DNA of 64,000 nucleotides from Paracamarosporium sp. OC-R06-R3 (Eukaryota > Ascomycota > Dothideomycetes > Pleosporales > Didymosphaeriaceae), in the NCBI GenBank assembly GCA_019828545.1, contig JACVRA010000120.1, positions 186,001 to 250,000 of the forward strand, given 5' to 3'. The notes under the pieces were generated by a model, which was given only the letters and a program-made list of their open reading frames with translations, did no database searches and was not told the origin of the DNA. The stretch's first letter is position 1, and the number at the start of each line of letters is the position of its first letter. Below are positions 4,614-47,099 of this stretch, in pieces. A program made the translations under genes and the position numbers.

Positions 4614-6187
4614 GTCAACTCGGTCGAGATCATAGGAGAAGGTGGGAACCAGGCGAAAATGCGACGCGAAGGGGTATTATCTGACCAAGGTTAGCCGCAC
4701 TGCCGTCTTGTCGCTGCCACGGGACCAAGGCCTGAATCCTCGCGGAAGGCGGTTAGACAGTTACGTACGCCTGTGCACGGCTACGCCCGGGGGAACAAGG
4801 ACAACAGCGAAGGACGGCGGTCTCTGGACAAAAGAATGGACGGCTGAGGGACGGGGCGCCGTTCAGCCAGCTGGGGCGCTCGCAGGAGGAAGCAAAAACG
4901 ACGACGCCGGCGGACAATGCAATGCAAGCTGGAGGACGGTATGCAACAAACAACGCCTGTCCAAACAGAGCGAGCGCGCAGGGCTTCAAGAAGGAGATAG
5001 ATGGTAGCACGGATATAGCGGCATGATATAATTCGCGGCGCACACAATCCCCACCCCGACATGATGAGAGGCGCGCCGGGTTTGGCAGGGGCCGACCGCG
5101 CACGCCAAGCCGCCAAGCCGCCAAACCGCGGTGCAGGCTAGCGTTTTGGCGGATTCTAGGGGTATGTGGACAGCGTGCGACAGCCCTATACCTCCACTGC
5201 GATGCCGGATTGGCCGTGATGCCGTGTCGCGCGGCCCGCTGAGATGAGAGGCGGCTTGGCGCTCATCTGAAGGCGGAATCATCAACGAAAAGGAGACCGA
5301 GAAGCCACCTGGCAGGCTGAGGACTGCGCCGTGGCCGCAAACGTCAACCCTCGCGCTGAGACAAGCTAGAGCCTCTTCGGGCAATTGCACCACATCGCCG
5401 TGCCCTGACGGTGCACAGCTCCTCCATTTCCATCAACGGTGGACCGACGTCGCCGCTGAAACGGGGCCGGCTTGCGCGTACACGCCGCGGAACTACATGT
5501 ACTCTGTATCCCAGTATCCTAATCTAGTCAAAGCCCATGAGTATCGCTCGCTACGCCAAAGCACACTGCTTCAACCCGTTGTCTTCGTACGTGAATTCAT
5601 CTTCTGACCCTGAAGATCCATTGCCCTTGTCGCCCACGGAAAGCTTCGAATGCTTATGTCGCCGTGCACCGGACTTGGCGAATTACAACTCAAAGTAAGC
5701 CTGCCTGGATTATTTGCGTCCATCTGCATGCAAAAGTATTTTCGTACGGGCATTATGTCATGCATGTTCGTGTTACACAACAGCATCGTGGCGCAGGCTT
5801 TCATGATATGTAGCCGCATGGCCACGCGCGCCTGTGCAGTCTACATGAAACACACATTACTTCGCTCGCCACTCAGGGGAACGTCGTTCTTCAATTGCAC
5901 AGTAGCCAGTGACACCCTCTGAAATGCAAATGTCCCAAGCAGCCTCTAAGCGCTGCCGATTCGACCCTCGTTCCATCCTACGAGTACCTTACACGCCACA
6001 TCCCAGCCCCACCACCCCTCCCTTCCATCTCTCTCCCAACCAATCTAGTTCCACCCCACCAACCACACTCTGTCCGTTCCCATCCCCTCGCTTTTCAGAT
6101 CCAGTCCTCCCATTCGATCTATATTTTGTCTATATAGATTTAATTGGAACAAAATTGTTCATCAGTCTCCCATACGAGACCATCTGC
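4614..6187. other. Intergenic region upstream of the acyltransferase, with one short ORF
   Basis: 1.6 kb with no recognised gene. The proximal 700 bp is GC-rich and probably includes the acyltransferase promoter. A 53-codon ORF (5537-5698, plus) is listed separately. The distal part is C-rich (5990-6120) and leads into the tRNA-Trp gene. Confidence 0.4.
5537..5698 (+). CDS. Short ORF or first exon, 53 codons, weak
   Basis: An ATG at 5537 opens a 53-codon frame starting MSIARYAKAHCF and ending at TAA 5696-5698. The composition is protein-like, with an acidic/proline segment DPEDPLPLSP. The stop overlaps a good splice donor (AAA|GTAAGC at 5695), so it could be a first exon, but I could not find a convincing second exon. 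Low confidence. Confidence 0.15.
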   Translation: MSIARYAKAHCFNPLSSYVNSSSDPEDPLPLSPTESFECLCRRAPDLANYNSK

Positions 6188-6334
6188 GGGGCATTGGCGC
6201 AATGGGTACGTTACATCAAGCACAAAGCCAATTAGCAAGCACACTTGCTAACCCACTCGCAGTAGCGCGTCTGATTCCAGAAATCTGACTTCGGAATATC
6301 CAGAAGGTTAGCTGTTCGAATCAGCTATGCCTCA
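6188..6334 (+). tRNA. tRNA-Trp(CCA) interrupted in both D-loop and anticodon loop
   Basis: Acceptor stem GGGGCAT (6188-6194) pairs with ATGCCTC (6327-6333, one G-T), with discriminator A6334. The D-stem is GCGC (6197-6200) with GCGC (6265-6268). The anticodon arm starts TCTGA TT CCA G (6270-6280), matching the conserved eukaryotic tRNA-Trp context GCGCGTCTGAYTCCAGA. The T-arm is AGCTG-TTCGAAT-CAGCT. Two insertions are seen: 57 nt in the D-loop (6206-6262) and about 18 nt after position 37 (6281-6298), where GGAAT can pair with ATTCC around the anticodon as in ordinary nuclear tRNA introns. The spliced length is 72 nt. The A box TGGCGCAATGG and B box are intact, and a T6 Pol III terminator follows. 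One blemish is an A31-C39 mismatch after anticodon-intron removal. An alternative, class II tRNA-Leu(CAG) reading needs C33 and a T-T mismatch and is worse. Confidence 0.78.
6206..6262 (+). other. 57-nt spliceosomal-type intron in the tRNA D-loop
   Basis: Starts GTACGT, contains TGCTAAC at 6246-6252, and ends CTCGCAG. The length and all three signals match the mRNA introns in this window. Precise removal leaves GCGC-AATGGTA-GCGC, a canonical D-arm. The junction is ambiguous by one G; only the GT-AG register is shown. Whether it is removed, and by which machinery, cannot be seen in the sequence. Confidence 0.6.
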
Positions 6335-6347
6335 GATTGAATCACTC

Positions 6348-6353
6348 TTTTTT
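6348..6353 (+). terminator. Pol III terminator of the tRNA-Trp gene
   Basis: A run of six T, 13 nt downstream of the discriminator base, followed by GTTTTG. This is the normal RNA polymerase III stop signal and supports the tRNA call. Confidence 0.75.
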
Positions 6354-45173: not shown

Positions 45174-47099
45174 ATGTACCTCAACTCGCGTAGCGTGCTA
45201 ATGGCTGTTTGTATGTCATTGTTTGCGTTCGAAGCCACTGCCCTTGTGCTCAGGCCAATAACGACAGTTCCCACAAATCCTAAAAGTGGACCTGGAAAAC
45301 ACGCTGAGAAACCTCCGGATGTTCAATTCGTCCCAATCAAGGACCCTGGAGAGATAACTGGAAGATTTGTGAAACGAGAGAAGAAAGGCAATAGCTGCTA
45401 CGACCCCTCCAGTCAGAATGAATTTTTGTGGGGCGCATATGGTAAGTACGCTGCAAGGCCAATTCATCATATGTTGCAAGAACATTGCAACAGGCTGATA
45501 GATAACAATAGCTGGAAACAATTTATACATGGCCAATTTTACCCTTCGAGCACCACAGGACGAAGAACTTATTCTGCCGATCGAGAACTTTGCTAAGGAG
45601 CTCAAGTCCATCAAGTGTGGTGAGCCGGGAGAAGGTATGACCCTTACTTTCCAGGACCAAAAGTCTTTCGACTATGCGCAGAAGCAGTGGAAGTGGGTCG
45701 ATGACGAGGACATCAATCATTTCGTCCTGGTTACCGAGCCGGATCAGTGCTACCAGGGTGATGATCGCTCACCATATCTCGTCAAGACCATTAATTTCGA
45801 TAGCTCAAAACTCACAGCATGCCTCAAGGCAGAAGAGGTGGAATGGAAAGATGTAGCGCAGGACTTCCACCTCACCACGTCGCATGAATATGTTAGCCCA
45901 GACATTGTCAATGTAACGCATCCTCATCTAGTCAAGAAAAAAGACGCCAAATTCGATTTGAGCATGAATTACGACCAGCAGATCTTTAATTTTGGCAAAG
46001 AATCAGAGCAGACCTCGGGGATGAGCCTCACTGCAAATGCAAAAATCTCCACTGGTGGGTCCATGGTTGCCGACTTTGACATCGACACGGTCCTGGGATG
46101 GCCCAAAGATGTGAGCATGAGGGTACATCCACAAGGCGTGTATGGCCAGATTATGCTTGAGCTGAACGCCAATGGTACCCTCGGCAAGCCGCTGGATTGG
46201 GCTTTGACACCCAAGATTGAGATCCCTGTTGGTGCGCTGAGTATCAAAGGTATCCTTGAGATTGGTCCGTATATTACTATGGGTGTTCATTATGGTTCTT
46301 CTGCTCTCACAGGCACTGCCACATGGTCAGCCGGAGCTAAAGCCTCACTCAAGGACACCGCTGAGGTAAAGGTTACGCTACTTGGGGATGGAGAGAACAG
46401 TATTAAAGATTGGACTCCTGATTTTGAGAAGATTGATCCTACTTTTAGCGCGGAAATTGCTGGTGATGTACGCGCTTGGGGTGAACTCGGAGTGCAGTTC
46501 AAGGCAGAGGTTCTTGGCCGTAAGTTCGACACACGTCACTGTCCTTATATCAGGCCTAAGCTAACGATGTCACAGTTTGGGGTTATCAAGCCAGTGTCGA
46601 TGCCGAGCTACCCTATTTTGAGGCAAAGCTGGCTGCACAAGTCAACTCGAAGGGTGTGTGTGGTAGCCAGAAGACATTAGGTGTAGAAGTAGACGCTGGT
46701 GTTGGGATCAATGTGCACCTCGATGTGGGCAAGGTCGACCAAAGTCCTGATTTCCAAACCGACCTTTTCGACACGCGATGGCCACTCTTTTCTACCTGCA
46801 TGGGATTTGGCCCTGATATCCAGACGCTGATGCCGACACCCGAGCTGACACTAACAGAAGAGTCAGAATCCACTCTGTCTGTCGAGCTTACTGAATTGCC
46901 TGTGGGCACGGGTACAGGTGGCTTGAGTACTCCTGGAACAGAGCGTCCTACGGTAGTTATTACAACAGGACCTCCACGGGCAACAAGAACCGGAGCGATA
47001 GGCACGGGCACAATTAGTAGTGAATTCCTAATTACAGCGAATAGCACCTTGATTATAATGGCAAACAGGCGACCGACAGCTGTGCACAACGGGTGGTAG
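45174..47099 (+). CDS. Secreted DUF7029/DUF7223-type protein
   Basis: Three exons: 45174-45441, 45512-46519 and 46576-47099; 599 aa. A signal peptide (MYLNSRSVLMAVCMSLFAFE) is followed by a propeptide-like region with a KR site (GRFVKREKK, about residue 63). The domain order fits the fungal DUF7029 (N-terminal, including MANFTLRAPQDEELILPI) plus DUF7223 (C-terminal, beta-rich, with SMNYDQQIFNFG and PLDWALTPKIEIPVGALSI). The last exon carries a Cys pair region GVCGSQKTLGVEV and FSTCMGFGPDI, then a Thr/Pro/Gly-rich tail. There is no clear GPI signal at the end (NGW). The role is unknown; these proteins are usually predicted to be cell-wall or extracellular. It is the only intact gene in a 10-kb gene-poor stretch. 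Confidence 0.78.

Follow-up and report, generated by a model that had tools for sequence, protein, structure and literature searches.

Candidate spliceosomal-type introns in the D and T arms of nuclear tRNA genes of Paracamarosporium sp. OC-R06-R3

Can the maturation of a nuclear tRNA depend on the spliceosome? The question is raised by a tRNA-Trp(CCA) gene of 147 bases (6188-6334, + strand) in the window, the whole analysed stretch of 64,000 nucleotides from contig JACVRA010000120.1 of Paracamarosporium sp. OC-R06-R3. The gene is interrupted twice, by a 57-nt insert in the D loop and by an 18-nt intron in the anticodon loop. The eukaryotic tRNA endonuclease acts at 37/38, and the original prediction read the D-loop insert as an intron of the spliceosomal type. 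A spliceosomal intron in a fungal U6 snRNA was reportedly described by Tani and Ohshima in 1989, and mRNA-type introns are said to have been found in the Rhodotorula U2 snRNA (Takahashi et al. 1993) and in ascomycete rDNA (Bhattacharya et al. 2000). According to the accessible passages of PMC5832005, the vast majority of analysed Pezizomycotina carry U3 introns, and no small structured RNAs other than U3 and U6 are known to contain an intron often; U6 is described as a Pol III transcript in the available part of PMC10484740. An excerpt of PMC2586383 mentions occasional spliceosomal introns within noncoding RNA genes and cites ascomycete rDNA and the Rhodotorula U2 as cases. The fungal U6 snRNA and U3 snoRNA introns, as far as these excerpts describe them, resemble the present case in that a small structured noncoding RNA is split by an mRNA-type GT-AG intron with a branch site, but the host there is an snRNA or snoRNA and here a tRNA that also bears an intron of the TSEN type. 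The ascomycete rDNA and Rhodotorula U2 introns are likewise of the mRNA type and lie in fungal noncoding RNAs, yet their hosts are rRNA and U2 snRNA, not tRNA. Among the matches listed, drawn mostly from open-access literature, none reported a spliceosomal intron in a nuclear tRNA gene, and the string "spliceosom" is absent from the main texts of PMC4033280 and PMC4090602.

The features of the gene are collected in Table 1. The D-loop insert is placed after G19 and runs from GTACGT through TTGCTAAC to GCAG, and the GTACGT, TGCTAAC and terminal CAG named in the original prediction are all present in the sequence as claimed. When both introns were taken out, ARAGORN recognised the resulting 72-nt RNA as tRNA-Trp(cca), in which the acceptor stem is paired at 7/7 positions (one G.U), the D stem at 4/4 and the T stem at 5/5, and the anticodon stem at 4/5, with A31.C39 (6274 and 6300 of the window) as the non-pair. 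ARAGORN called no tRNA when the D-loop insert was left in and the anticodon intron removed, and it named the gene Leu(cag) when only the D-loop insert was removed, because the remaining anticodon intron shifts the arm. The unspliced gene was called tRNA-Trp by the same program with introns allowed, but with the 57-nt intron misplaced. The Rfam tRNA model gave no match at the gene, even at E ≤ 10, and a custom tRNA model that had this gene in its training set aligned to 6257-6326 only. The A and B boxes were assigned by their consensus sequences. Exact removal of the insert therefore rebuilds the D arm as proposed, and the acceptor, the T arm, both internal promoter boxes and the terminator were found where they had been predicted.

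Table 1. Features of the tRNA-Trp(CCA) gene and its flanks (window coordinates)
Feature	Position	Strand	Basis or remark
TATATA box, 57 nt 5' of the tRNA start	6131..6136	+	TATAWA survey of 39 tRNA genes
Exon 1: 5' strands of the acceptor and D stems, D loop up to G19	6188..6205	+	sequence, ARAGORN
A box TGGCGCAATGG, wholly 5' of the D-loop insert	6195..6205	+	sequence
Spliceosomal-type intron, 57 nt, in the D loop between positions 19/20	6206..6262	+	
5' splice site GTACGT of the D-loop intron	6206..6211	+	sequence
8-bp hairpin TTAGCAAG(CACA)CTTGCTAA within the D-loop intron, overlapping the branch site	6232..6251	+	fold z = -1.9 versus dinucleotide shuffles
Branch-site motif TGCTAAC, branch-like A at 6251, with the last base of the intron 11 nt further 3'	6246..6252	+	sequence
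3' splice site CAG of the D-loop intron	6260..6262	+	sequence
Exon 2: T20, A21, 3' strand of the D stem, anticodon arm up to G37; CCA anticodon at 6277-6279	6263..6280	+	
Canonical anticodon-loop intron at 37/38, 18 nt	6281..6298	+	bulge-helix-bulge type: central pairs 4/4, outer 3/4
Exon 3: position 38 to discriminator A73	6299..6334	+	
B box region TGTTCGAATCA, intact, 3' of both introns	6313..6323	+	sequence
T6 run, Pol III terminator, 14 nt 3' of the gene	6348..6353	+	sequence, T-run survey

The frequency of such a stretch was evaluated on both strands of the window. A relaxed rule (GTRNG...CTRAY...YAG) was satisfied by 5 of the 127,886 stretches of 57 nt and a strict one by 2, the D-loop insert included, and the D arm fixes the borders of the insert to within 1 nt. 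Because the rule is satisfied so rarely and the borders are dictated by the D arm, the insert is more than a chance resemblance. Its match to the mRNA introns of the genome, whose spacing the original prediction had seen in it, is weaker than stated there, being qualitative and illustrated by single candidates. One of these, at 10882-10836 (-) beside a PI4K_N-bearing ORF, has matching signals that include TTGCTAAC, and the other, with matching signals, lies at 46520-46575 (+); the first coding-model intron callers yielded 1 and 4 mRNA introns. GTANGT...CTAAC...YAG occurred 16 times in 223.7 kb versus 8 times in the reversed control, only a twofold enrichment, and neither the GTACGT class (4 versus 3 reversed) nor the GTAGGT class (8 versus 9) was enriched alone.

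It had been argued that several intact tRNA-Trp genes elsewhere, together with the lack of a spliced product, would mark this locus as a disabled copy. As far as searched, BLASTN found one uninterrupted gene, on contig C155, which has an 11-nt anticodon intron and no D-loop insert. A pattern search for tRNA-Trp returned the same two places without mismatch, and 147 places at ≤2 mismatches, 10 of which were inspected. The window gene (contig C17) and its C155 paralog align with continuous exons and without a gap at the insertion site. Over the 72 mature positions the two genes show 11 differences: five stem pairs in which both partners changed and pairing was kept account for ten, and a D-loop site for the other. 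Neither gene has an added stem break, and A31.C39 is common to both. The five compensated pairs therefore show that the window gene was selected for structure after it split from the C155 paralog, though possibly only until the intron arrived. The A31.C39 combination, which closes the anticodon stem in both tRNA-Trp genes (in the window and also at locus L002), is either a kept mismatch or one corrected by editing. The external signals were surveyed in 39 tRNA genes: 29 have TATAWA in the 110 nt upstream, as do 5% of random stretches, and 30 have a T5 run in the 40 nt downstream, as do 2.8% of random stretches. All three interrupted genes identified in this work, namely the window gene and the two described below, have both a TATA box and a T-run, as intact tRNA genes do. 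A31.C39 aside, the window gene has the cloverleaf, the promoter boxes and the terminator of a functional nuclear tRNA gene.

The Rfam tRNA model pointed to a second case, with a score of 27.7 bits on contig C18, under the gathering score of 29, and with 71 bases in the T loop where the model has 6. The gene is a tRNA-His(GTG) split at 53/54 by 65 bases, GTAGGT...TACTGACTGTAGTAACAG. A pattern search identified a second split tRNA-His on contig C317, with a homologous 67-base insert at 53/54. Both inserts have a GTAGGT 5' splice site, a TACTGAC branch motif and an ACAG end. The tRNA-His gene on contig C37 lacks the T-arm insert and provides the exact empty site, and BLASTN of the assembly revealed no tRNA-His genes beyond these three. 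Their mature sequences are identical over 71 nt, and their anticodon introns measure 8 nt (C18), 15 nt (C317) and 15 nt (C37). When the two T introns are aligned, 52 of 67 columns agree, and there is no change in the first 15 bases, GTAGGTTGGCCCTCT or the GTACTGACTGT block. Flank identity is 50-51% for 200 nt and 56-58% for the closest 50 nt, where the mean of the baseline is 47%. Splice signals kept amid drifted flanks would be the pattern expected from purifying selection on these signals, although gene conversion could hold the exons and the T introns alike without selection. The C317 gene is a mosaic, with an anticodon intron in common with C37 and a T intron in common with C18 (loci L061, L089 and L068); this points to gene conversion, or to C37 having lost its T intron. 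At 53/54, the final G of the intron replaces G53 before TTCGATTCC. The insertion sites in tRNA-Trp (19/20) and tRNA-His (53/54) are both GG|T proto-splice sites, and both lie downstream of the A box and upstream of the B box, which stay usable. The original reading of the D-loop insert as spliceosomal in type is supported, and is independently reinforced by the homologous mRNA-type introns at 53/54 in the two tRNA-His genes.

These data bear on the possibility that the interrupted genes are disabled copies: tRNA genes that were redundant before an mRNA-type intron entered them, and whose product stays unspliced or is not made. The presence of uninterrupted tRNA-Trp (C155) and tRNA-His (C37) genes speaks for this account and is a point against our preferred explanation, as neither isotype need depend on this splicing and the C155 gene could supply tRNA-Trp. 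So is the location of the D-intron branch site within the 8-bp hairpin, where its pairing with U2 could be hindered. However, the stems are intact save for the A31.C39 shared with the paralog, the promoter and terminator are kept, and the intron is present in two of the three tRNA-His genes, where the splice signals are unchanged and the exons identical although the flanks have drifted. Kept splice signals are not expected in a dead copy. We consider disabled copies unlikely, and the compensated changes, the promoter parts and the tRNA-His parallel rule them out as the best reading; the dull alternative raised in the original prediction is accordingly disfavoured by the retained TATA box, terminator, A and B boxes and stems, and by a paralog that differs almost only by compensated pairs.

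Further split genes were sought by in-silico excision of 13,007 GT/GC...AG candidates with a branch-like motif in 107 loci (251 kb, some overlapping). A nuclear tRNA was rebuilt across a D- or T-arm splice only at the window tRNA-Trp gene and the two tRNA-His genes. The other excision calls corresponded to the ends of an intact tRNA-Ala (L023) and tRNA-Gln (L059), to mitochondrial-type neighbours (L005/L007) and to a shifted reading of the window gene, and 14,308 excisions in three non-tRNA loci yielded no tRNA. Five split-gene patterns were also run. One gave 15 hits versus 13 for the reversed pattern, of which 12 were inspected and one was a tRNA (the window's); another gave 6 versus 11, comprising the two tRNA-His genes and four non-tRNA hits. 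The remaining three gave 15 versus 28 (one tRNA, again the window's), 5 versus 5 (the same two tRNA-His genes and three non-tRNA hits) and 14 versus 16 (zero tRNAs). The patterns served only to locate candidates, because they showed no useful excess over the reversed controls. The T-arm form was absent from viral and prokaryote contigs, and the D-loop form from viral contigs, as expected for a fungal gene. The RF00005 model scored 63 of the 1,284 candidates of the assembly and missed the C17 and C317 genes. Further introns of this kind may lie in nuclear genes outside the tRNA set, which include those for Asp, Phe, Met, Pro and Val; since the catalogue is incomplete, the three interrupted genes in the 39 surveyed are a minimum.

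The manner of removal was addressed by testing a 3-4-3 bulge-helix-bulge (BHB) at each junction, with shifts of -1 to +2. The two tRNA-Trp and three tRNA-His genes have five anticodon introns, and at the annotated border central pairs were 4/4 in all of these but the 8-nt intron of the C18 tRNA-His (2/4). At the D and T inserts, central pairs were 0, 2 and 2 of 4, and never exceeded 2 at any shift. The D and T inserts differ from the canonical 37/38 introns of the same genes, which mostly have the expected pairing, in position (19/20 and 53/54), length and signals as well as in the lack of BHB pairing. The inserts could still be cut by the tRNA-splicing endonuclease or another nuclease and then ligated, like the ectopic introns of red algae, with the GT-AG borders incidental. 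In the available text of PMC9602550, the red alga Cyanidioschyzon merolae has ectopic tRNA introns, including one at 53/54 in tRNA-Ile(UAU); those in the D and T arms are thought to leave before the anticodon intron, with nothing further known on their processing. The C. merolae introns, as described there, are like ours in lying in the D and T arms and in sharing the tRNA-His site, but they are algal, and the excerpted part of PMC3978253 describes disrupted algal tRNA genes as BHB-mediated; the fungal inserts have spliceosomal signals and no BHB motif. The same source, in the part available, notes that many of the ectopic tRNA introns of the Guillardia theta nucleomorph (Kawach et al. 2005) are without a defined BHB motif; compared by description, these also occupy odd places, in a different lineage. 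A further point for nuclease cleavage is that TGGG (6203-6206) can pair with CCCA (6252-6255), as seen by eye. The central pairing of 0-2/4 in all three inserts, with annotated or shifted borders, nevertheless contrasts with 4/4 in four of five anticodon introns, and GT, the branch motif and YAG occur in three of three inserts. We regard this route as very improbable, and an endonuclease-type intron was rejected on the failed pairing test.

The spliceosome is the better candidate, because BHB pairing fails and GT, a branch motif and CAG are found in all three inserts. Other features of U2-type introns are also present: GT...AG borders, a fungal 5' splice site, the distance to the branch motif, and exact presence or absence at one site. 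We therefore favour the view that the tRNA-Trp gene of the window is a working one whose D loop acquired a U2-type spliceosomal intron, in a fungus with at least three such tRNA genes, and assign this reading a probability of roughly three in four. Judged by sequence, this is a real set of tRNA genes with spliceosomal-type introns, which the spliceosome most likely removes. Under this reading, RNA polymerase III would transcribe the window gene from the TATA box and the intact A and B boxes, and the major spliceosome would excise the 57-nt GT-AG intron from the primary transcript via the TGCTAAC branch site. Restoration of the D arm would then give a mature body recognised by the tRNA end-processing enzymes and the tRNA-splicing endonuclease. 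The folded tRNA body is what RNase P, tRNase Z and the tRNA endonuclease recognise, and the D- and T-arm introns would for this reason have to leave first. TSEN and tRNA ligase would subsequently take out the 18-nt anticodon intron, as its canonical position and pairing suggest, and the tRNA-His introns at 53/54 would follow the same route.

The origin of the inserts, as opposed to the manner of their removal, is the subject of another proposal, namely that they are copies of a mobile introner-like element and that the tRNA sites are merely landings of a genome-wide family. Introner-like elements of Dothideomycetes form hairpins, as all three inserts can. However, their fold z-scores are weak (-1.9, -0.9 and 0.2), BLASTN with whole genes found no other copy of the D insert (E ≤ 0.001), and no copy of the T insert was found outside tRNA-His by BLASTN at E ≤ 10. 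A mobile introner, for which many near-identical copies are expected, was rejected since no further copies were found, and we hold it to be extremely unlikely.

The present introns extend the known mRNA-type introns of small noncoding RNA genes to tRNA. If the spliceosomal reading is true, the spliceosome makes tRNA as well as mRNA and acts on RNA made by Pol III, and a single precursor has to pass through two unrelated splicing systems, one before the other. Three questions would become testable: by what means the spliceosome finds introns in an RNA that has neither cap nor poly(A) tail, how RNA genes gain introns, and whether splicing can tune tRNA supply. We also think it reasonably probable that these genes represent a class of fungal pre-tRNAs that are spliced twice in succession, first by the nuclear spliceosome and then by TSEN and ligase. 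Such a class would be kept in multigene families, as in two of the three tRNA-His genes found, and would likely occur in other Pleosporales, unseen because tRNA finders ignore mRNA-type introns. In the accessible part of PMC8450103, and among the matches listed, the noncanonical-intron search of tRNAscan-SE 2.0 is described for the archaeal mode, so that fungal split tRNA genes may be missed or filed as pseudogenes.

The composition of the assembly was assessed with the PreP protein encoded in the window, which is 91% identical to that of Didymosphaeria variabile and 88-89% identical to those of Paraphaeosphaeria, Kalmusia and Paraconiothyrium, which places the fungus within or close to Didymosphaeriaceae (Pleosporales). 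PreP has one match in the assembly, so a single nuclear genome is likely, on the evidence of this one gene. A mixed assembly contributing a foreign second tRNA-Trp is disfavoured by the same single match. Contigs C26 and C300 each carry a large mitochondrial-type tRNA set, in different order and including tRNA(tca), and the assembly seems to hold two mitochondrial genomes despite the single PreP match. According to ARAGORN, anticodon-loop introns are present in 25 of the 36 nuclear tRNA genes listed without a D- or T-arm insert (L002-L067), a high share. In the 80 nt upstream, 18 of the 39 tRNA genes have a CATCAAATCA-like element (for example at -15 to -17 in L048-L051), compared with 1% of random stretches; the window tRNA-Trp gene does not have it, and it is possibly an unrecognised upstream Pol III element. 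Finally, a 100-nt match to U6 and a shorter one of 72 nt occur at C302:51797-52187, about 220 bases apart and on opposite strands.
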